Of a stretch of 8,675 nucleotides of DNA, positions 1-8,582 are shown piece by piece. Every line of letters begins with the position of its first letter. The stretch's first letter is position 1. The notes beneath the pieces were generated by a model, which saw only the letters and a program-made list of their open reading frames with translations, was not told the DNA's origin and searched no databases. A program made the translations under genes and the position numbers. The DNA is from Oscillospiraceae bacterium (GTDB taxonomy: Bacteria > Bacillota_A > Clostridia > Oscillospirales > Oscillospiraceae). The stretch covers positions 1-8,675 of the forward strand of contig JAEDOK010000071.1 of assembly GCA_016302005.1 (NCBI GenBank). The letters are read 5' to 3'.

Positions 1-200
1 GCCAGTATTTATACTGTCATACTTTGTCGTTTACACAGACTTTTCTGCGGTCTCACGGTTCAATCCCTTTTGCGAATTAGAAGGGATGTCGTATAGGAAT
101 ATTTTCGCATCAAGCTTGGTTATTTGTTTTTTTGGTGGATCGTGGTGTACTTTTTGCGTTTCTTCCCTCCACCTGTACTCCGTTTGGTTACTCTTTGGCA
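1..200. other. AT-rich stretch without a recognisable gene
   Basis: I see no credible coding region on either strand; open frames here lack ribosome sites and family-like sequence. A small inverted repeat, ATCCCTT (63-69) with AAGGGAT (81-87) around an 11-base loop, is present. The words TCAATCCCTT at 60-69 and 254-263 are followed by similar GCGAATT and GCGGAATT text, so an imperfect direct repeat brackets the palindrome that follows. Composition is visibly more AT-rich than the genes to the right, which fits an intergenic or accessory origin. Confidence 0.5.
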
Positions 201-246
201 GAAAAGAAACAACCTTTGTCTTGCAAGACAAAGGTTGTTTCTTTTC
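201..246. terminator. Perfect 46-bp palindrome, possible bidirectional terminator
   Basis: Bases 201-223 are the exact reverse complement of bases 224-246, centred on TTG|CAA. As RNA this gives a stem of about 21 bp closed by a tight loop. Each arm ends in GTTTCTTTTC in its direction of reading, so both strands have a T-rich 3' edge, as expected of a two-way intrinsic terminator. The T-tracts are interrupted by C and are part of the stem, so termination is inferred. It could instead be the tip of a palindromic mobile repeat continuing into the hairpin ladder at 266. Confidence 0.55.
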
Positions 247-265
247 AACGAAATCAATCCCTTGC

Positions 266-424
266 GGAATTTGTGAAATGCCCTTCGGGCGTGAAATATG
301 GCTTCGCCATGAGAAATGCCTGCTTATCGTGAGGGGATTCATTTCATTTCACTTTCCGCGCAGGAGGAAAATTTCACAATGACCGAAGGTCATTATTTCA
401 CATCCGAAGGATATTCCACTTCAC
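266..424 (+). repeat. Hairpin ladder built on GTGAAAT / ATTTCAC units
   Basis: Left side: GTGAAAT at 273-279 and 291-297, then GAGAAAT at 311-317. Between them lie hairpins GCCC-TTC-GGGC (280-290) and ATGGC-TTC-GCCAT (298-310). Right side: ATTTCAC at 346-352, 371-377 and 395-401, then ATTCCAC at 413-419. Between these lie TTTCC...GGAAA (353-370), AATGACC-GAA-GGTCATT (378-394) and ATCC-GAA-GGAT (402-412). Left units can pair with right units in nested order, with GGAAT (266-270) facing ATTCC (413-417), so the whole can fold into one long stem with small hairpins projecting from it. Left loops are TTC and right loops GAA, as expected of an overall inverted design. I recall similar ladders as dispersed repeats in Clostridia but cannot name a database family. 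It ends about 50 bases before the four-helix-bundle pseudogene. Confidence 0.75.
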
Positions 425-473
425 ATTCTTCCTTGCCTGCTGCATAATTTGGATTAGAAAAGGCGGTGTATTT

Positions 474-615
474 CTGTCCGAATCCAAACTTCGAGAAATT
501 CCAACGGATTTCGCAGTCAGAGTGATTAGGCTAATATAATGTAAAACGAACGGCGTTTCAAGCGTTCTCGCACAGATGGTCGATTTGGGCGGATAAGTGG
601 TTACGTCGGACGATG
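474..615 (+). pseudogene. Remnant of a four-helix-bundle (23S IVS / Avd-like) protein gene
   Basis: Frame 474 reads (L/M)SESKLREIPTDFAVRVIRLI, which matches my memory of the N-terminus of small bacterial four-helix-bundle proteins (23S rRNA intervening-sequence protein family, relatives of the Avd protein of diversity-generating retroelements). A purine-rich ribosome-like site, AAAGGCGGTG (460-469), precedes a CTG where a start codon would be expected. A TAA at 537-539 stops the frame after 21 codons. The same frame then continues with a reading like GVSSVLAQM. A shift of frame is needed to read on through an IGR-x-G-like stretch, resembling the family's NQIGRSGTSIGAN motif. Beyond about 615 I recognise nothing, so the C-terminal two thirds are lost or unreadable. 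Intact members are usually about 120 residues. The assignment rests on recalled sequence similarity. Confidence 0.5.
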
Positions 616-690
616 AAAAAGAAAAACCGACAATTTCCCGAAGAAAACTGTCAGATATCGGTGAAAGAACGATCAGTGTAGTTGTAACCC
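616..690. other. No recognisable feature between the pseudogene and the tRNA terminator
   Basis: This short AT-rich stretch shows no ribosome site, hairpin of note or family-like translation. It may contain unreadable remains of the four-helix-bundle gene. No copy of the tRNA-Thr 3' end, which would mark an integration site, is visible here or further left. Confidence 0.4.
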
Positions 691-699
691 TTTTCAATG

Positions 700-728
700 A
701 AAAAAAGCACGCCGAAGCGTGCTTTTTT
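700..728 (-). terminator. Intrinsic terminator of the tRNA-Thr gene
   Basis: Bases 701-712 pair perfectly with 717-728 around a four-base CGAA loop, with a GC-rich core (GCACGC/GCGTGC). Read on the minus strand, the hairpin ends in a run of seven U (700-706). It begins three bases beyond the CCA end of tRNA-Thr. The symmetrical A and T runs could also let it stop plus-strand transcripts. Confidence 0.88.
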
Positions 729-730
729 CG

Positions 731-806
731 TGGAGCTACTGGCCGGACTCGAACCGGCGACCTGCTGATTACGAATCAGCTGCTCTACCAACTGAGCCAC
801 AGTAGC
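731..806 (-). tRNA. tRNA-Thr, anticodon CGU
   Basis: The minus strand folds into a complete 76-nt cloverleaf. The acceptor stem is GCTACTG (806-800) with CAGTAGC, followed by a U discriminator and an encoded CCA (733-731). The D-arm carries the usual AGTTGGTAGAGC, and the T-arm GCCGG-TTCGAGT-CCGGC. The anticodon stem GCTGA/TCAGC closes the loop TTCGTAA, placing anticodon CGU at 773-771, which reads the threonine codon ACG. It has its own promoter and terminator and stands as a single-gene unit downstream of sigF. Confidence 0.96.
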
Positions 807-834
807 ATAACCGCTTGCGCGATTAGCGGATATT

Positions 835-863
835 ATGATACCGTATTTTTTATGTTTTGTCAA
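835..863 (-). promoter_or_regulatory. Sigma-A promoter of tRNA-Thr
   Basis: On the minus strand a perfect -35 box TTGACA (863-858) and a -10 box TATCAT (840-835) are separated by 17 bases. The start of transcription would fall near 828, about 20 bases before the mature tRNA 5' end. Near-consensus boxes and ideal spacing suit strong constitutive expression. Confidence 0.85.
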
Positions 864-893
864 GACAGAAAGTGAAAAAACTTCACATTTTCT

Positions 894-931
894 AAAAACA
901 GCGGCACATAGATACACTACATACCGCTGTT
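894..931 (-). terminator. Terminator of the spoIIA operon after sigF
   Basis: The minus strand begins this hairpin seven bases after the sigF stop codon. AACAGCGG (931-924) pairs perfectly with CCGCTGTT (904-897). The inner part, TATGTAG with CTATGTG, extends the stem through several G-U pairs to about 15 bp around a five-base loop. A run of five U follows (898-894). It separates spoIIA from the tRNA promoter. Confidence 0.83.
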
Positions 932-935
932 CGCT

Positions 936-1640
936 TTAAATATAGCTTTTCAGCGCAGCAAGCGCTTTTTTTTCGATGCGTGAGATCTGCACCTGTGAAA
1001 CGCCGAGGATCTTTGAGGTCTTATCCTGCGTCAAGCCGTGGAAAAACCGCAGCTTGATGACCATTTGCTCCCGCTCCGACAGGCACGCGATCGCCTCCCG
1101 CAATGCGATCCGTTCCACGATCTGCTCCTCCATTTCTCCGTCCGTCAAAACATCCTCCAGCGAGAAGCCGTCCTCCCCGCACTGCCGCTGGATGGATTCC
1201 GTCGCGCCCGTCGCGGTCTCCGCCGAGGCGATCTCCTCCGCCTGTAAGCCGGTCTCTGCGCTCAGCTCCTTTAGAGTCGGTTCGCGCCCCAGCTCACCCG
1301 TCAGTCTCGCCCGCGCAGCTCGAATCTGCCCCGCGCGTTCTTTGAGACTGCGGCTGACCTTGACCGTGCCGTCGTCCCGCAGGAAGCGGCGAATTTCTCC
1401 CGCAATTTTGGGGACGGCATAGGTTGAAAACTGGGTGCCGTACTGCGGGTCAAAGCCCTCGACCGCTTTGAGAAAGCCGAGACAGCCGAGCTGATAAAGA
1501 TCGTCCGGATCGACGCCGCGCCCGAAATAGCGCCGCGCGATCGACCAGATCAGCCCCGTGTTGCCGACGACAAGCGCCTCACTTGCCTCGCGGTCCCCCT
1601 GCTTTGCCCGTTCTAGCAGCGTGCTTTGTTCCGCGATCAC
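936..1640 (-). CDS. sigF: RNA polymerase sigma-F factor (SpoIIAC)
   Basis: Forespore-specific sigma factor of the sigma-70 family, which directs RNA polymerase to early forespore genes after asymmetric division. The 234-residue protein has region 2 at about 25-93, including DDLYQLGCLGFLKAVEGFD, and then the EIRRFLRDDGTVKVSRSLKE stretch (82-101) typical of sigma-F/sigma-G. Region 3 lies at about 95-145, and region 4 at 178-231 with helix-turn-helix LTQDKTSKILGVSQVQISRI. Length is close to B. subtilis sigma-F. The start is GTG (1640-1638), overlapping the spoIIAB stop in a GTGA four-base overlap that implies coupled translation. It is the last gene of the operon, held inactive by the SpoIIAB encoded just upstream. 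Sigma-G is the main alternative, but the position after spoIIAA-spoIIAB makes sigma-F near certain. Confidence 0.96.
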   Translation of the reverse strand: MIAEQSTLLERAKQGDREASEALVVGNTGLIWSIARRYFGRGVDPDDLYQLGCLGFLKAVEGFDPQYGTQFSTYAVPKIAGEIRRFLRDDGTVKVSRSLKERAGQIRAARARLTGELGREPTLKELSAETGLQAEEIASAETATGATESIQRQCGEDGFSLEDVLTDGEMEEQIVERIALREAIACLSEREQMVIKLRFFHGLTQDKTSKILGVSQVQISRIEKKALAALKSYI

Positions 1641-2077
1641 TTTTTTCCTCCGCGGCGGATGATCTTTCGCTTCATATGTACGGTGGTGCCCTTGCCCTTC
1701 GCGGAGCTCAGGCGGAACTCCGTCATAAAGCTCTCCATGATGGTAATGCCCATGCCCGAGCGATCCTCACCGCCTGTGGTGAACATCGGCTTGCGTGCCT
1801 GTTCGATGTCCTCGATGCCGCAGCCCTTATCCTTCACGACGATGTCCAGCACATTGTCACCGAGAATGCGTGCCTTTAAAATGATCGGCCCGATGGTGTC
1901 GGGATAGGCGTGGACGATGCAATTCGTGACTGCCTCGGAGACGGCGGTCTTGATATCCCCCAGCTCGTCCAGCGTCGGGTCAAGCTGGGCGGCAAAGCAG
2001 GCAACTGCCGCGCGCGCAAAGGCTTCGTTGGATGATTTGCTCGGAAATTCCAAGCTCATGTAGTTTTCTCCCCTCAT
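1637..2077 (-). CDS. spoIIAB: Anti-sigma-F factor and serine kinase SpoIIAB
   Basis: GHKL-family kinase that binds sigma-F and holds it inactive, and that phosphorylates SpoIIAA. With the chosen start it has 146 residues, as in B. subtilis. The ATP-binding N box is SEAVTNCIVHAY (E48, N52), the G1 box DKGCGI (83-88), and the later glycine box SGMG (107-110). R22, in NEAFARAAVA, corresponds to the B. subtilis arginine that contacts sigma-F. I chose ATG at 2077, which shares an ATGA overlap with the spoIIAA stop and has AGGAGGAG eight bases upstream. A GTG at 2086 and an ATG at 2059 are in the same frame; the latter, giving MSLEF, also has a fair GGGGAG site. The tight overlaps on both sides suggest fixed stoichiometry with partner and target. 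Confidence 0.95.
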   Translation of the reverse strand: MRGENYMSLEFPSKSSNEAFARAAVACFAAQLDPTLDELGDIKTAVSEAVTNCIVHAYPDTIGPIILKARILGDNVLDIVVKDKGCGIEDIEQARKPMFTTGGEDRSGMGITIMESFMTEFRLSSAKGKGTTVHMKRKIIRRGGKK

Positions 2078-2394
2078 CTGGTGCACTCCTCCTTGATCTC
2101 CGTGATTTTTTCAATTCCCGCCGCCCGCAGCACCTTATACGGCTGCGCCGGAATATTCTGCAAAAGCAGCTTGCCCTGCAGGGTGTTCATCCGCCGCAGC
2201 GTATGCAGCACGACGGCGATACCGCTGGAATCCATAAACCGTACCTCCTGAAAATCGAGGATACAGCGCAGCGGCATATACAGGTCGATCTTCTCCGAGA
2301 TCGTCTGCATGATCTCTTTCGCGCAGTGATGGTCGATCTCACCCGTCAGCGCGACGGTGAGCTGCCGATCCTGCACATAGCTTGTCAGATTCAT
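2074..2394 (-). CDS. spoIIAA: Anti-sigma-F factor antagonist SpoIIAA
   Basis: Small STAS-domain protein that, when unphosphorylated, displaces sigma-F from SpoIIAB. The 106-residue product carries TGEIDHHCAKEI near residues 18-29, matching the GELDHH motif of the family, and FMDSSGIAV (53-61). S56 is the expected phosphorylation site, equivalent to Ser58 of B. subtilis, and is intact. The start is ATG 2394-2392, with GGGAGGAG six bases upstream; an open frame continues to 2418 but without a better start. It overlaps spoIIAB by four bases. It is the first gene of the spoIIA unit, yet a terminator hairpin lies only about 20 bases upstream (see terminator at 2417). Confidence 0.94.
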   Translation of the reverse strand: MNLTSYVQDRQLTVALTGEIDHHCAKEIMQTISEKIDLYMPLRCILDFQEVRFMDSSGIAVVLHTLRRMNTLQGKLLLQNIPAQPYKVLRAAGIEKITEIKEECTR

Positions 2395-2416
2395 TGTATG
2401 CTCCTCCCATTTGTAC

Positions 2417-2455
2417 AAAAAAACGAACCCACGCGGGTCTTTCCCGTGTGGGTTC
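2417..2455 (-). terminator. Terminator between the GerMN gene and spoIIAA
   Basis: On the minus strand GAACCCACACGGG (2455-2443) pairs with CCCGCGTGGGTTC (2437-2425) around a five-base loop, with a single A-C mismatch. It is followed, after CG, by seven U (2423-2417). This is a strong intrinsic terminator for the comEA/two-component operon, whose last stop codon is at 2520-2518. Its U-tract ends only 22 bases before the spoIIAA start, leaving room for the ribosome site but not for a promoter downstream of it. An attenuator role in a spoIIA leader is possible but not shown. Confidence 0.82.
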
Positions 2456-2517
2456 AGTATAAGCGATAAAGCTTGCGCCGTTTGTCGAAAGCGCTTCGCA
2501 GGTTGGACTTTTTCGCG

Positions 2518-3831
2518 TCAATCCGCAAACCAACGCTCGGCAGGGCGGTGAATTGTGCGCAGCGCCTCGTCGCGGAAGGTCGGCTCGATGCCCTCCACCA
2601 GTATTTCGACGGTATTGATCTCCGAAAGACCGCACATCGTCGCGACGATGGAGCGGACGGCAAGCGTCTCCTCCTCGGCATTGACACAGCCGTCTAAGAA
2701 TTCGCGGGTCAGATCGACCACACAGTTGCCGTTCTCAATGCGCAGAGACAGCAGCTTCGTACCGGCGGGAATACAGCTTTGCAGACCGTTTGTGCCTTCA
2801 AAGGCAAACAGTGCGTTGAGCAGCAGCTCGGCGGTTGTATGCTCTTCGTCCAGCGGAAGAAGCAGCGGTACAGAGACTAAAAGGCTGTCGCCTCCGCAGG
2901 TGGGGTAAAGGGTGACATCCAGCAGATCCTTGCTCGCGGGGACGGAGATCAGGCTTTCGTCGCGGGAAATGCCGCTTAGCAATTCCATGCGGTACAGCTT
3001 CTCGACCGGTGCGCCTGCGACCCAAAGGTCTACGGTGGTGATCTCAGGCAGCTCCGTCAGGGAATTGACAATCGAATAAACCGCCATGCGTTCCGCAGCA
3101 TAGCTTTGCTCCAAGTCATTCAGAAATTCCGACGAGAGATCGACGGTGCATATGCCGTTTTCCACGCTGATCCCCAGCAGCTCCGTCCCCTCGGGAATAC
3201 AGGAGGTGAGCTGTCCGCGTTCTCTGCCTGCAAGAAGCTGCGAGATGATATAGGCGGGTTTATCCGCGCTGTTCATCGCCTCAACGCTCAGCGTCTCGCG
3301 CACAAGATAGCGCCGCTGCGCGTCGGGATAATAGAGCGTGAGCATTTCCTCCTGCGGGAGCATGCCCGTGTCATGCAGGAAGATATCGTTTTCCGAAAGA
3401 ACCAGCGGCGCATCTACGCCCGGCATGGTGATGCTGACACGCTGTACGGTATCAAGCTGTAAGAGCGTCATGGCAATACAGGTTGCGCAGAGGGAACGCT
3501 CGAGTGCATCAACCTGCTTCCCATGCAGGACGATCTCCGCAGTCGCGTCCTGAAGGACGACAGAGCTTAGCGTCCATGAGGTAGGGAGAGGCGCCGCTCC
3601 GTTTTCCGGCGGGAGGGAGGCAAAATATCGCGTCAGCAGCTCCTCGGTCTCGACTGCGGTGACATCAAAGCCTGCGCTTTGCGAGCAGAAGGCGCCTTCC
3701 CCTCCGTAGGAGACCGTTTGCGCGGGATAATAGAAGAGAAACGCGGCATCAGCTTCCTGCAGATCAGCCTCCCCGCAGGCGCACAACAGCAGCATAACGG
3801 CAAGAAGAAGGCAAAACAGGCGATTTTTCAT
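2518..3831 (-). CDS. Lipoprotein with three GerMN-like repeats
   Basis: Predicted exported lipoprotein of 437 residues. A signal peptide MKNRLFCLLLAVMLLLCAC ends in a lipobox with C19 as the lipid-bearing cysteine. Three GerMN-like units follow: a diverged one at about 31-136, then 163-272 and 305-413. The last two share CIPxGTxLL-x-x-x-ENGxCxVDLxxEFL (211-237 and 353-379). GerMN domains occur in the spore germination protein GerM and in actinobacterial LpqB, a lipoprotein that works with the MtrA-MtrB two-component system. Here the gene overlaps the histidine kinase stop by four bases (ATGA), with GAGGAGG seven bases upstream, so kinase and lipoprotein are probably made together. A role in sensing or tuning the kinase at the membrane surface is inferred. 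A sporulation or germination role like GerM is the alternative. Confidence 0.82.
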   Translation of the reverse strand: MKNRLFCLLLAVMLLLCACGEADLQEADAAFLFYYPAQTVSYGGEGAFCSQSAGFDVTAVETEELLTRYFASLPPENGAAPLPTSWTLSSVVLQDATAEIVLHGKQVDALERSLCATCIAMTLLQLDTVQRVSITMPGVDAPLVLSENDIFLHDTGMLPQEEMLTLYYPDAQRRYLVRETLSVEAMNSADKPAYIISQLLAGRERGQLTSCIPEGTELLGISVENGICTVDLSSEFLNDLEQSYAAERMAVYSIVNSLTELPEITTVDLWVAGAPVEKLYRMELLSGISRDESLISVPASKDLLDVTLYPTCGGDSLLVSVPLLLPLDEEHTTAELLLNALFAFEGTNGLQSCIPAGTKLLSLRIENGNCVVDLTREFLDGCVNAEEETLAVRSIVATMCGLSEINTVEILVEGIEPTFRDEALRTIHRPAERWFAD

Positions 3832-5273
3832 AGGTTTTCCTCCTCTGTTTCAAACAGCGGAAAGCCTACGGTGAATACCGTGCCGCCGCCCTCTCTCGCT
3901 GCAACGCTGATTGTACCGTAGTTCCGTTTGACCATGTCATGTACGATGGACAGGCCCAAGCCCGCGCCGCCGGCGGCGCGGGAGCGCGCCTTATCCACGC
4001 GGTAGAAGCGCTCAAAGATGTGCGCCATCGACTCTTCCGGGATGCCGACACCGTTGTCCGCCACACACAGTACGACTTCCTCCTCCTTGCGCGATAGGGA
4101 GACCTTGACCCATCCGCCCTCGCGGTTATACTTTATGGCGTTTTCCGCCAGATTAAAGACGATCTGATAGAGGTCGTCCTCCACCGTCATAACGGTGCAG
4201 CCGTCAGAGAGCGTGCAGCCCAATCGGATCTTACGCAGCGTAGCAAGCGGCTGCAGCATTCGCGTCACCTTCTGCACCGTCGCGGCAGCATCAAGAATCT
4301 CCCGTTCCTCTAAAACGGCGCTGTCCAGCTTGGTCAGTGTCAGCAGCTTCTGCGACAGTCTGCCCAAACGATCCGCCTCCCTGCCGATGTCGCTGATGAA
4401 CTCGCGCTGTGTGGCAAGGTCCATATCGTTTTGTAAAATAGAATCCGACAGCAGCTTGATTGACGCGAGCGGCGTTTTCAGCTCGTGGGAGGCGTCCGAG
4501 ACAAACTGACGGCGGCGCTGCTCGGAGGCCTCCAAGCGCTCCGCGAGATCATTAAACTCCCTGCCGAGCTGATCCAACTCGTCATGCCCGCGCAGCGTGA
4601 GCTTGTGGCTGTAGTCGCCGTCGCGCATCATGCGGACGGAATGCAGAATGCGGCGCATACGGCGGGAAAAGGCAGTCGAAAAGAGCATGGAAAAGAGAAT
4701 CATGCCGACCGCTAACGCCACGGAAAGCCGCAGGACATTGGTCTGCAAGGCGTCGATCAGCGCGCCCTGATCGGTGTCGTAGAGCATCAGATAGACCGTG
4801 CCGAGCATCTGCCCGTTCTTGACCAGCGGGACTGCTGCGCGGCTTTCAATCGCGCCGTCGGCGTAGCTGCTGTAAAACACGTCCTTGCCGGAAAGCGCCG
4901 TGACGATTTCGGGGAAGAGCAGCAGCTTCCCTTCGGCATTGCCTGCAACGAGCGAGTCATATACCGCCATGCCGCTTGCGTCCGTCACGACGGTGCGTGT
5001 GGTGGAAAGATCCTCCAACGCATTAATCGCGGCTTCGACCTTCGTTGAGGTCAGCTCATCCAGCTGCAAAAGAGCAGTCGTCATGAGCTGCGTTCTGTCC
5101 TCCATGGTCTGCCGCTGTGCGCTGAAAATCATATTGCGCAGGGTCGTGGAGGTGTAAATATTCAAAAAGAACAAAACAACTGCAGTGATCAAAATGTACG
5201 CCATTGCAAAGCGAAGCTGCGAGCTGCTCGGCAACAGGGACAATCTTCGTTTACGCTTTGAAATAGTACCCAA
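3828..5273 (-). CDS. Membrane sensor histidine kinase
   Basis: Sensor kinase of 481 residues that should phosphorylate the response regulator encoded just upstream. It has a basic N-terminus (KRKRR), a membrane segment at about 22-40, an outer sensor domain at 41-181, and a second membrane segment at 182-202. A HAMP linker (203-255) follows. The H box is SDASHELKTPLAS with H263; the catalytic domain has N box NLAENAIKYN (N374, N378), G1 DNGVGI (406-411), F box FERFYRVD and G2 GAGLGLS (436-442). All catalytic boxes are intact. The start is uncertain: TTG at 5273 overlaps the regulator gene by 23 bases and keeps the basic leader, but its GGGGAG directly abuts the codon. A TTG at 5243 is the alternative. 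The overall form resembles PhoR/WalK-type kinases; the signal is unknown. Confidence 0.92.
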   Translation of the reverse strand: MGTISKRKRRLSLLPSSSQLRFAMAYILITAVVLFFLNIYTSTTLRNMIFSAQRQTMEDRTQLMTTALLQLDELTSTKVEAAINALEDLSTTRTVVTDASGMAVYDSLVAGNAEGKLLLFPEIVTALSGKDVFYSSYADGAIESRAAVPLVKNGQMLGTVYLMLYDTDQGALIDALQTNVLRLSVALAVGMILFSMLFSTAFSRRMRRILHSVRMMRDGDYSHKLTLRGHDELDQLGREFNDLAERLEASEQRRRQFVSDASHELKTPLASIKLLSDSILQNDMDLATQREFISDIGREADRLGRLSQKLLTLTKLDSAVLEEREILDAAATVQKVTRMLQPLATLRKIRLGCTLSDGCTVMTVEDDLYQIVFNLAENAIKYNREGGWVKVSLSRKEEEVVLCVADNGVGIPEESMAHIFERFYRVDKARSRAAGGAGLGLSIVHDMVKRNYGTISVAAREGGGTVFTVGFPLFETEEENL

Positions 5274-5925
5274 CTCCCCACTTTGTCATCACATATTCCG
5301 GCTCCGCCGGAACGGTTTCCAGCTTTTCTCGAATGCGTCGGATATGCACATCTACGGTGCGGATGTCGCTGCGGTATTCATAGCCCCAGATCATATCCAA
5401 CAGGTTTTCGCGGGAATAGACGCGGTTCGGATTGCGGATCAGAAGCTCCAGAAGGTCGAATTCACGGGCGGTCAGCTCCACGGGCACGCCGTTTTTATAC
5501 ACATTGCGCTCCTGCGTGTCCACCGTCAGTGCGCCGATGGTGATGCGGCTGCGCTGATGGTCATAACCGCCGCTGCGGCGCAGAAGCGCGCGGATACGGG
5601 CTTTTAACTCTAAAATGTTAAAAGGCTTTGTCAGATAATCGTCCGCGCCGTGCTCAAAGCCGAGCAGCTTGTCCATATCCTCCGTACGGGCGGTGAGCAT
5701 AATGATCGGCACATCGGAGAACTCGCGGATGCGCCTGCATGCCTCCAAGCCGTCGATCTCCGGCATCATGACATCCAGCACGATCAGCCGCACCTCCGGA
5801 TCATGCGCCAGCTCGATCGCCTCACGCCCGTTGGAGCCGCTGACGACCTGATAGCCGTCGTTTTGCAGATTGAAGCGAATACCCTTGACAAGCAGCTCCT
5901 CGTCATCTACTACCAGTATTTTCAT
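5251..5925 (-). CDS. OmpR/PhoB-family response regulator
   Basis: Two-component transcription regulator of 224 residues. The receiver domain (1-115) has the acidic pair at 7-9 (VVDDEE), phospho-acceptor D51 in VLDVMMPEIDG, T78 in MLTAR and K100 in YLTKPF, so all key residues are present. The winged-helix DNA-binding domain (about 126-224) contains LTAREFDLLELL, RENLLDMIWGYEY and RTVDVHIRRIREKLE, and ends in WGVGYYFKA as in PhoB/WalR relatives. The ATG at 5925 has GGGAGG six bases upstream and lies in an ATGA overlap with the comEA-like stop. The downstream kinase overlaps its 3' end, so it is almost surely the cognate partner. Target genes cannot be told from this window; cell-wall genes are suggested only by the neighbours. 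Confidence 0.95.
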   Translation of the reverse strand: MKILVVDDEELLVKGIRFNLQNDGYQVVSGSNGREAIELAHDPEVRLIVLDVMMPEIDGLEACRRIREFSDVPIIMLTARTEDMDKLLGFEHGADDYLTKPFNILELKARIRALLRRSGGYDHQRSRITIGALTVDTQERNVYKNGVPVELTAREFDLLELLIRNPNRVYSRENLLDMIWGYEYRSDIRTVDVHIRRIREKLETVPAEPEYVMTKWGVGYYFKA

Positions 5926-6323
5926 TCCGTTCCTCCCAAAGTCACATAGTCTCGGATATCATCAATGCGCTTTTCGCCGATCCCTTCCACCTGCGCAAGC
6001 TCGTCAATGGAGGAAAAGCTGCCGTGCGCCGCGCGATACGCCACAATGCGTCCGGCAAGAACCTCCCCGATGCCGGGCAGGGTCATCAGCTCCTCGGCGG
6101 TTGCCGTATTCAAATCGAGTTTCGCGCCTTGCTGCATCGCTGCGGTCTCCTCGGTGCTGCTCATCGCCCGGGTAGCGCTCTCAGACACGGCTGCGGGCTG
6201 CCGCATGGTGATCACCCTTGTGTTCCCGTCCGTTTGCAGCCTCCCTACGCAGAAACCGGCGGCAAAGAGTAAAAACGCCGCAGCCAACGCAATCAAAATC
6301 AGGTTTGTGTTCCTCAATTTCAT
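5922..6323 (-). CDS. ComEA-like helix-hairpin-helix DNA-binding protein
   Basis: Membrane-anchored DNA-binding protein of 133 residues. One membrane segment (about 7-27) is followed by a low-complexity Ala/Ser/Thr/Glu-rich linker, then tandem helix-hairpin-helix motifs at about 69-129: LDLNTATAEELMTLPGIG and IDELAQVEGIGEKRIDDI. ComEA binds double-stranded DNA at the outer membrane face during transformation. This protein is shorter than B. subtilis ComEA, lacks room for its middle domain, and no comEB or comEC follows, so a competence role is likely by family but not proven. The frame is open to 6467, but ATG 6323 has AGAGGA eight bases upstream and begins just before the membrane segment. 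Its stop overlaps the response regulator start by four bases, an unusual pairing of comEA with a two-component system. Confidence 0.88.
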   Translation of the reverse strand: MKLRNTNLILIALAAAFLLFAAGFCVGRLQTDGNTRVITMRQPAAVSESATRAMSSTEETAAMQQGAKLDLNTATAEELMTLPGIGEVLAGRIVAYRAAHGSFSSIDELAQVEGIGEKRIDDIRDYVTLGGTE

Positions 6324-6346
6324 CGTGTATTTCCTCTGTAATTCCG

Positions 6347-6374
6347 TTGACATAATCATGTTTTTTGCTATAAT
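6347..6374 (+). promoter_or_regulatory. Sigma-A promoter of the dacF-udg operon
   Basis: A perfect TTGACA (6347-6352) and a perfect TATAAT (6369-6374) are 16 bases apart. Transcription should begin near 6381, giving a 5' leader of about 115 bases before the dacF-like start. The leader holds a small hairpin, CGGCA (6386-6390) with TGCCG (6396-6400). The promoter suggests vegetative expression, unlike the sporulation-controlled dacF of B. subtilis. Confidence 0.85.
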
Positions 6375-6437
6375 AAAAATGACCACGGCAAGCTGTGCCG
6401 AATCAGCCGCGATGCAAGAACTCGGTTGATATCTTTT

Positions 6438-6467
6438 ATTATAACACAAAACTGTGCGCTGCGGCAA
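6438..6467 (-). promoter_or_regulatory. Probable promoter of the comEA/two-component operon
   Basis: On the minus strand a perfect -10 TATAAT (6443-6438) is preceded, after 18 bases, by TTGCCG (6467-6462), which matches the -35 consensus at four of six positions. Start of transcription would be near 6431 and the leader about 108 bases long. Because the opposing plus promoter fires near 6381, the two transcripts should share about 50 complementary bases at their 5' ends. Confidence 0.5.
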
Positions 6468-6496
6468 TCCTTATCCGTGCGCTTTTGGGGGTACAT

Positions 6497-8023
6497 ATGA
6501 AAAATCGTTGGTTTTTGTCCGTTTTTTTACTGCTGATTCTATTGACGCAGATGATTTTGCCCTGCGCGGCAACAGAGAACGGCGCGTCCGCTTCCGAATC
6601 CGTGCAGGAAGCGGAGGACGGGAGCGACGAGACCGTCCCCGAATCTGTTCCGGAAGCACCGAACGCGGCAGCAAAAGAGGGCTTTGCGCCGCCGGCGCCG
6701 CTGATTGAGTATAACTTTCCTTCGGATTATCAGGTGCGGGCAAAGGCGGCGGTACTGCTCGAGGTGACTACCGGTACGGTCATCTACGGTTATCAGCTCG
6801 ACGAACGGTTGTACCCTGCCAGCCTGACGAAGATCATGACCTGTATGCTGGCGCTTGAATACGGGAGCCTTGATGATACTCTGACGGTCTCCGCGACCGC
6901 GTTGGAAAACCTCAGTGAATTCGGCAGCACCGCCAATTTGCAGGAGGGCGAAGAGATCAGCCTGCGGGAGCTGCTCTACTGCATTATGGTTTCCTCCGCG
7001 AACGAGGGCTGTAATGTGGTTGCGGAATATGTTTCCGGCAGCATCGAAGCCTTTGTTGCGCTGATGAATCAAAAAGCCCGGGAGCTTGGTATGACCGGTA
7101 CGCATTTTGCCAATACCCACGGCTTGCATGATGACAACCATTATACCACAGTGCGTGACCTTGCGATTTTGAGCTATTGGGCGTGGAATAATCGCGATTT
7201 CCGCGAGTACGCGACCACGACGGCGCACACTGTTCCCGCGACGAATCTCTCCGAATCCCGCACGCTGCATACGACAAACTACCTGACCAGCGCCCAGATT
7301 ACCGCGAAATATTATTACTCCAAGGCAAGCGGTATTAAGACCGGCTTCACCACGCCCGCAGGCGGCTGCCTTGCCTCCACGGCGACGGACGGCTATCTGA
7401 CCTATCTGAGCGTGGTCTGCGGCTGCGAGACCCTGATCGACGAGAACGGCGATGATCTGGATATGCGTTTCGTTGAAACAAAGCGGCTGATGGAATACGG
7501 CTTTGAAAACTACGACTATGTCCAGGTGCTCTCCGATACGCAGATGCTCGGGCAGCCTGCCGTTACCAACGCGAAGGGACGCGCTAATGTCGTTGTCCAC
7601 GCCAACGCGAACGCGACGGTCCTGCTGCCGAAGGACTGCACGGCGGAGGACATCACGATGAGCCTCAACTATGACAGCACGCAGACCCTTGACGCGCCCT
7701 TAGAAGCAGGGCAGCGCGTCGGCACGGTGACGGCGATGTATCAGGGCATCCCGCTGGCAGCGGCGGAGCTGGTCACGCTGACCGCCGTCGAACGGGAAGG
7801 CGCTGTTCCTACCACGGCGAATGAGACGGAAGCGGCAGTGCAGGAGGCGGGAGCTACGGAATCGGCGTGGAAAAAATACCGCGTCCTGATCATCGTACTT
7901 GTGATCCTGTTTACGCTGATCTGCACGCTTTTGATCCTGCGCGCGATCAATGTGCATCAGGCGAAAAAGCGCGCCGCGCAGCGCAGACGGAGAGCGGAGC
8001 AAAGGAGAAACGGCAATGGATAA
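6497..8023 (+). CDS. D-alanyl-D-alanine carboxypeptidase (DacF/PBP5 type)
   Basis: Serine-type carboxypeptidase that removes the terminal D-alanine from peptidoglycan stem peptides outside the membrane, limiting cross-linking. The 508-residue protein has an N-terminal signal segment (about 4-24) and an acidic linker (26-65). The S11 catalytic core follows, with S109-L-T-K112 (nucleophile S109), S167-A-N169 and K281-T-G283, all intact. The PBP5 C-terminal beta domain lies at about 335-430. The C-terminus is a real membrane helix (about 462-482) followed by a very basic tail ([15 protein letters not shown]), rather than the amphipathic anchor common in the family. ATG 6497 has GGGGG five bases upstream; the open frame extends to 6395 but precedes no better start. 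B. subtilis dacF lies directly upstream of spoIIAA; here a related gene lies nearby in opposite orientation. Confidence 0.93.
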
Positions 8024-8582
8024 TATGGACATTCTGCGGCAGCGATGCCTGCAATGTAAGAATTGCCGCCTCGGCGCGACGCGGACGAATATCGTCTTCG
8101 GCGTAGGACCCGTGCCGTCTCCGATCGTCTTCGTGGGCGAGGGACCCGGGCAGCAGGAGGACTTGCAGGGGGAGCCGTTCGTCGGCGCAGCAGGCAAGCT
8201 CCTCGACGAAATGCTCTCCATCATTGACCTCGGGCGGCATAACTGCTATATCGCCAATATCGTCAAATGCCGTCCGCCGCAGAACCGCGACCCCATGCAG
8301 GACGAGCAGGATGCCTGCATCGGCTATTTAAACGAGCAGCTTGCCCTGCTGCAGCCGAAAATCATCGTCTGCCTCGGCAGGATCGCCGCCATGCGGCTGA
8401 TCAAAGAGGATTTCCGCATCACGAGAGAACATGGGCATTGGTTCTCTAAGGACGGTGTGGAGTATACCGCCCTCTACCACCCCTCTGCCCTCCTGCGCGA
8501 CATCTCCAAACGACCGGACACCTTTGCCGACCTTCTCTCCCTCCGCCAAAAAGCGCAAAGCTTAGGCCTGACGATTGGATAA
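8016..8582 (+). CDS. udg: Family 4 uracil-DNA glycosylase (Fe-S)
   Basis: Base-excision repair enzyme that removes uracil from DNA. The 188-residue protein has the family 4 cluster cysteines at C14, C17, C85 and C101, with spacing C-x2-C-x67-C-x15-C, as known for the thermophile enzymes with a 4Fe-4S cluster. Motif GEGPGQQED (41-49) with [14 protein letters not shown] forms the catalytic pocket, and [11 protein letters not shown] (152-162) is the family's second motif with H155. The ATG at 8016 overlaps the end of the dacF-like gene by eight bases and has AAAGGAG eight bases upstream, so the two are probably co-transcribed and translation may be coupled. ATG 8025 is a less likely start. The related phage SPO1 DNA polymerase N-terminal domain is an older name for the same fold. 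Confidence 0.94.

Follow-up and report, generated by a model that had tools for sequence, protein, structure and literature searches.

In the intervening sequences (IVS) of 23S rRNA genes, such as those of Leptospira and Coxiella, a gene of the PF05635 type (23S_rRNA_IVP, hereafter IVP) lies between complementary ends (PMC4990558). IVS elements have long been suspected to be mobile, their protein S23p has been described as having no known function, and the solved IVP relative Xcc0516 forms a ring of five (PMC4990558). Gut-1 (RF01706) was published as a putative non-coding RNA, from environmental sequences only (PMC2864571), and the repetitive extragenic palindromic (REP) sequences and bacterial interspersed mosaic elements (BIME) associated with RAYT occur as many short palindromic intergenic copies (PMC3116915, PMC2817692), as do the repeats described here. 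The 8,675-nucleotide stretch analysed (the window), from the genome of a gut bacterium of the Oscillospiraceae, holds a ladder of hairpins matching Gut-1 in both halves, followed by the truncated start of an IVP gene. Ladder and gene remnant probably belong to a single selfish element, of which they are the left part; its IVP protein would be the partner of a dispersed palindromic repeat, in a pair resembling REP and RAYT.

IVP genes have also been noted in cas loci (PMC3936711) and in a figure legend on associations with clustered regularly interspaced short palindromic repeats (CRISPR; PMC10910872), and IVP is the commonest Pfam family in aggregated data on neighbourhoods of diversity-generating retroelements (DGR; PMC10053308). 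The DGR protein Avd shares the four-helix-bundle, S23-family fold of IVP (4dwl, 8ub7/8ub8). In the available parts of the Gut-1, IVS, cas, CRISPR and DGR papers, repeat arrays or scattered copies were not mentioned, save for the inverted ends of the rRNA insertions, and no description of a coupling between a ladder and IVP was found in the accessible portions of the open-licence literature. The elements described below lie outside rRNA rather than in the 23S rRNA gene, their ends consist of element-specific unit arrays or hairpin ladders, and gene-less copies are scattered, all of which sets them apart from IVS (PMC4990558). Gut-1, too, differs here from its published description as a putative non-coding RNA (PMC2864571), since it makes up one half of a palindromic repeat that is dispersed and linked with IVP genes.

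Hairpin ladder and gene remnant in the window

The features assigned to the element and its left border are listed below. G numbers denote genomes compared, most of which were incomplete metagenome bins, and L numbers denote loci or sequences examined.

148..199, + strand: repeated stretch on the left, preceding the terminator hairpin; also found in G002:C73 (twice), G060:C23 and G003:C22, and in part (from 178 on) in G060:C5
194..253, no strand assigned: nearly perfect hairpin resembling a terminator, which forms the element's left end; 30-nt arms, 90% complementary
242..424, no strand assigned: hairpin ladder; hairpins separated by the unit GTGAAAT in the left half and by the reverse complement of that unit in the right
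246..322, + strand: Rfam Gut-1 (RF01706), left half of the ladder; 61.5 bits, gathering score 50
341..421, - strand: Rfam Gut-1 (RF01706), right half of the ladder; 50.8 bits, gathering score 50
420..448, + strand: promoter-like site TTCACA-17-CATAAT between ladder and gene remnant; motif scan, 3 sites in 1-960 with 1.4 expected
459..532, + strand: 5' remnant of a truncated PF05635 (23S_rRNA_IVP) gene, with its ribosome-binding region; DNA homology with L150

The two Gut-1 matches stand head to head and both exceed the gathering score. Conservation of the structure was analysed in an alignment of ten ladders, comprising the window, eight sequences from genomes and one from a viral contig, the latter nine being the distinct sequences among 18 ladder-spanning blast hits. 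At the 37 rung pairs, 95.8% of the cells were paired, a value reached by none of 500 shuffles, and shifting the partner cut pairing to 47% or less. Double-sided changes were found in 19 of the 37 rung pairs, as compared with a mean of 6.9 in shuffles, none of which (0/500) reached 19. Across 30 oriented ladders, 174 hairpins were counted against a mean of 38.7 in shuffled sequences. The ladder structure, reported to end at 424 by an earlier model-made interpretation of the DNA (the sequence-only reading), is real and may act either as DNA or as RNA. The fourth helix is disrupted in the window copy (alignment A3, columns 79-89). Internal G.T and A.C mismatches were equally frequent in the 174 hairpins (4 versus 4; with 22 internal mismatches this comparison has little power), and these small numbers thus gave no sign of selection for one strand. 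Neither this count nor the promoter-like site, which lies between ladder and gene, supported the proposal in the sequence-only reading that the ladder functions as RNA. The -35 box of that site overlaps the last rung of the ladder, and similar sites were seen by eye at the same position in L137, L150, L148, L123 and L140.

Window positions 199-532 aligned in one piece with L150 (G009:C10; 78% over 337 columns, E 4e-68), a locus with a terminator hairpin, a ladder and an intact PF05635 gene, in which the counterpart of the 194-253 hairpin comes after a tRNA-Leu. A further relative, L137, matched positions 200-448 at 85%. Aligned on its own to the start of the L150 gene, the 459-532 segment scored 40.1 bits, compared with 28.3 for the best of 200 shuffles and 25.6 for the rest of the window. 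The intact relatives L150 and L321 scored 88 and 94.6 bits, respectively, against the PF05635 profile (cut-off 33.8). The gene start that the sequence-only reading had placed after the ladder was thus recovered at the level of DNA. At the level of protein the outcome was divided: hmmscan of the three forward frames against Pfam and NCBIfam returned no family, because only about 20 codons are left, and the best piece, SKLREIPTDFAVRVIRL, matched the IVP proteins L112, L113 and L115 with an E value of 4e-4 in 361 bases. At the place aligned with the start codon of the intact relative, the window has no start codon. Judged by DNA homology, the remnant is descended from a PF05635 gene.

Element homology ends at 532, where host-flank homology with locus L063 of a sister species begins. 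Blastn alignment of the window with L063 gave 88% for positions 532-959 and 92% for 532-3531, and L063 has no ladder at that place; L063 supplies the right-hand junction only. By these alignments, what the window retains is an element's left part, which breaks off at the 532 junction. It follows that the premature TAA at 537-539 lies in the host flank and not in the gene, that no frameshift is needed, and that the gene part does not extend to 615 as had been assumed; the verdict of a dead copy stands, and the gene is truncated at 532. Cut-off copies recur: in L190 (G162:C73), a ladder is followed by the first 30 residues only of an IVP gene (527-616, - strand). As a separate observation at the left border, a stretch with the motif TACTTTT..TCTTTCTTACC, which occupies window positions 148-199 and recurs in L185-L188, precedes terminator-like hairpins whether or not a ladder is present (L185 and L186 by eye).

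IVP genes and repeat arrays in related genomes

PF05635 was searched for in three sets of genomes: 4 of 8 near genomes contained matches (6 in total), as did 37 of 150 family genomes (61 matches) and 5 of 11 additional genomes (14 matches). The 64 IVP loci from near and family genomes were viewed in gene orientation and subjected to an array test, in which one 6-mer and its reverse complement each had to occur at least 3 times in the 400 bases upstream plus 250 downstream. The test was passed by 38 of the 64 loci, as compared with 62 of 1701 control open reading frames (L001-L080). When all 89 loci examined were included, 55 passed, against 16 of 890 dinucleotide shuffles. In an independent sample of PF05635 relatives on IMG/VR viral contigs, 9 of 12 loci passed (the sample contains two near-duplicate pairs), and one of these contigs (L321) bears a ladder of the window type. 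For at least 9 of the 61 PF05635 matches in the family genomes and for 3 of the 6 in the near genomes, a Gut-1 match lay on the same strand at most 300 bp upstream, so that family genes are not ladder-free in all relatives. IVP was present in 18 of 30 Gut-1-bearing genomes and in 19 of 120 others (p 3e-6; Gut-1 among the matches listed). Ladder and IVP gene very probably constitute one co-inherited unit. This coupling, which the sequence-only reading had proposed from adjacency, turned out to be wider than it suggested. The order of ladder first and gene second is not universal: arrays flank other IVP genes on both sides, and ladders without a gene are frequent.

Three designs were distinguished by eye. 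In the first (23 loci), the ladder lies upstream of the IVP gene, mostly after a tRNA and its terminator. In the second, inverted arrays flank the IVP gene on both sides, often between the stop codon of one gene and the next gene. In the third, the order is tRNA terminator, reversed array, a terminator arm in second copy, forward array and IVP gene. Such a second terminator-arm copy within a post-tRNA inverted array was observed in L155, L157, L158, L160, L161 and L143; some of these copies extend to the complement of the tRNA CCA end, as if by strand-switch copying. Five loci (L115, L145, L156, L314 and L318) showed more ladder, with the same or a similar unit, downstream of the IVP gene. A tRNA in the same orientation was located within 420 bases upstream of 30 of the 64 IVP domains and a tRNA in the opposite orientation upstream of none (background 13 tRNAs in 805,833 bases).

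The sequence of the repeated unit went with the protein. Protein identity correlated with the sharing of units (r 0.39, 0 of 5000 permutations; 56 of 59 elements); units were shared in 60% of the pairs that were more than 80% identical and in 5% of the pairs that were 40-50% identical. In 27 two-arm elements chosen for arm comparison, 11 of them from further genomes and viral contigs, left arms scored a mean of 20.6 against their own right arm and 8.6 against those of other elements, and the own arm was best in both row and column in 19. Of these two results, the arm-to-arm match would be the stronger support for the unit belonging to the element. At one site, between genes presumably corresponding to purH and purD, the IVP genes of G095 (L118) and G166 are 71% identical and have different units, each of which is present in both arms. 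At this site, both arms appear to have been renewed in concert. In G167 the same site is without the element and holds other sequence instead.

Gene-less copies were found at many places. In the genus of the window, 13 of 17 genomes matched part of window positions 1-720, all 13 in at least part of the ladder. Solo ladders in G080 and G132 were located between genes (by eye), and tblastn with the L150 protein detected no trace of an IVP gene in 20 fetched solo-ladder loci of these two genomes. For arrays of the L118 type, G095 had 34 further matches (about 15 places, grouped), G166 had 15 (about 9 places) and 18 other genomes had none; among these 18, other IVPs are present in 9, and the remaining 9, G167 among them, lack an IVP match. 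Arrays of the L155 type recurred in G074, G069, G009, G141, G115 and G065, that is, in 6 of the 9 genomes carrying this group of IVPs (as judged by eye), and gave no matches in 8 genomes with other IVPs. Gene-less arrays thus lie mostly in genomes holding the cognate IVP gene.

Proposed selfish element and rival explanations

A RAYT gene stands among REP repeats as the gene of their partner protein, as the IVP gene does here. The combination of many gene-less copies with a gene-bearing copy that has the same repeat, as in REP/RAYT systems, was observed in the genomes compared, G158, G162 and G166 being exceptions; the difference is that the partner is a four-helix-bundle protein rather than a Y1 transposase. 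In the mechanism that we propose, the IVP ring would read its own unit, repeated at each rung of an extruded or single-stranded ladder, and would promote copying of the ladder into new intergenic places, the copying step being a guess. Gene-bearing copies would be the source and solo ladders the passengers, with IVP relating to the ladder as RAYT does to REP. In the subfamily of the window, where the last rung overlaps the -35 box, binding of IVP at that rung could also limit its own synthesis. At 532, the window copy has been deprived of most of its gene, and the promoter region of an old host gene starts there. We place the system as a variant between IVS elements and REP/RAYT pairs, whose movement and mechanism we infer.

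Several observations weigh against this interpretation. IVP matches were absent from 12 of the 30 Gut-1-bearing genomes (among the matches listed), and 26 of the 64 IVP loci fell below the array threshold, including two DGR Avd-like genes and short contig ends. No further L155-type arrays were found in G029, G041 and G071, despite their L155-type IVP; conversely, among 8 IVP-free genomes, G014 alone gave L155-type matches (two, weak). G158 holds several GTGAAAT ladders with no IVP match, reflecting either a lost partner or an incomplete bin; G162 has ladders and, apart from the 30-residue remnant in L190, no IVP match; and the 15 array matches in G166 have the unit AGATAGG, yet the single IVP found in that genome has another unit. 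The array threshold was also passed by 4 of 10 post-tRNA control regions of L001-L080 (two overlap in L003). Such places therefore attract arrays whether or not the gene is present, and the association of IVP genes with upstream ladders may be due in part to a shared hot spot. Sharing of units among related proteins can be expected from plain co-descent as well, and in 8 of the 27 two-arm elements the own arm was not the best in both row and column (L133 ranked 8th and 9th). No target duplication, precise empty site or movement was seen, the genomes compared being of different species, and we know of no catalytic activity of IVP.

One rival explanation is that the ladder is a non-mobile regulatory structure, in DNA or RNA, which is bound by the IVP ring and controls expression of its own gene or of a neighbour. 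The promoter-like site directly after the ladder, with its -35 box in the last rung, the compensatory conservation of the rungs and the association of unit and protein are all compatible with such a role. The regulatory explanation nevertheless appears unlikely in view of the gene-less copies at many unrelated places, among them the 20 solo-ladder loci of G080 and G132 without a gene trace, the arrays on either side of the gene in the two-arm type, and the element-free purH-purD site of G167.

Alternatively, ladders could be REP/BIME-like repeats moved by a RAYT-type Y1 transposase, the IVP gene hitch-hiking or having landed in a hot spot. Y1 genes were indeed found in 22 of the 30 Gut-1-bearing genomes and in 37 of the 120 others (Gut-1 among the matches listed), a correlation that may be explained by repeats of the GTAGGG type, which also adjoin solo ladders in G080. 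In L253, L254, L257, L260 and L263, RAYT-like Y1 genes stand beside GTAGGG-tagged palindromes, which represent a separate REP-like family. When 20 divergent Y1 genes were submitted to the array test, 17 remained below the threshold, and the three that passed (L249, L257 and L260) carry other repeats, namely GTAGGG.. and GGCGGA.. palindromes. By eye, no ladder of the IVP design was present within 160 bases on either side of any of the 20 genes, and in the six genomes compared in this respect, likewise by eye, the Y1 gene nearest to Gut-1, among the matches listed, was about 13 kb away (G001, G009, G060, G069, G080 and G156). Moreover, arms and units track the IVP protein. Mobilization by Y1 was consequently judged rather improbable.

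A third possibility is a retroelement, in which ladder RNA would be copied by a reverse transcriptase acting in trans and IVP would play the part of Avd. DGR Avd-like PF05635 matches do occur in the data set: in L172 (G022:C2) and L174 (G076:C6), a reverse transcriptase lies within 1 to 1.5 kb and arrays are absent (by eye). Beyond these loci the system differs from DGR, and the absence of a visible reverse transcriptase noted in the sequence-only reading extends to most IVP genomes: RVT_1 was found in 15 of the 37 IVP genomes and not in the other 22, as compared with 31 of 113 genomes without IVP (p 0.15; incomplete bins). Among the six genomes with at least 3 IVP matches, G009, G069, G070, G115 and G155 had no RVT_1 and G139 had two. 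Together with the lack of a G.T over A.C bias in the rungs, these distributions make a retroelement quite improbable. Finally, that the protein likeness at 459-532 is due to chance and the window holds a solo ladder only is scarcely credible: although the frames reach no Pfam or NCBIfam model, DNA homology with L150 is unbroken from 199 to 532, and the score of the gene part alone was matched by none of the 200 shuffles.

The selfish element with an IVP partner thus remains the favoured explanation for the window. In a wider and more tentative form, which we regard as possible, PF05635 proteins, familiar from rRNA insertions for 30 years with no function assigned to them, may be the partners of a large class of selfish DNA, with arrays of their own unit in both orientations, arms renewed in concert and gene-less ladders seeded through the host, all with no transposase or reverse transcriptase. 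In that case, Avd of DGR and the intervening sequences of 23S rRNA would be specialized branches of this class, and Gut-1 would be half of such a repeat. The proposal joins two orphans, a function-less protein family and a role-less Rfam motif, in one testable system. Should IVP rings indeed recognise the units of the arrays that accompany them, a single mechanism would be common to rRNA intervening sequences, Avd proteins and a large class of intergenic repeats, and spread without a known transposase or reverse transcriptase would become open to experiment.

Host flank and neighbouring genes

To the right of the junction, the following host features were identified.

532..730, no strand assigned: host flank up to the tRNA; common to the ladder-free sister locus L063 (blastn)
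533..561, - strand: host promoter-like site (promoter motif scan); abuts the junction at 532 and, in L063, faces a gene that we take to be LytTR-like
701..728, - strand: hairpin after tRNA-Thr, read as the tRNA terminator (inverted repeat); present in L063 too
731..806, - strand: tRNA-Thr(CGT); tRNA and Rfam matches

The Rfam matches of the window included no rRNA, and the neighbours of the element are tRNA-Thr and protein genes, in agreement with the earlier description of a module away from rRNA. The protein encoded at 936-1640 (- strand), which we take to be SigF-like, has its closest relatives in uncultured Bacillota, Clostridia and Oscillospiraceae bins (L063 97%, L001 93%). Positions 936-8580 hold ordinary chromosomal genes, presumably those of a sigma factor with anti-sigma and anti-anti-sigma neighbours, a two-component pair, and proteins resembling D-Ala-D-Ala carboxypeptidase and uracil-DNA glycosylase.
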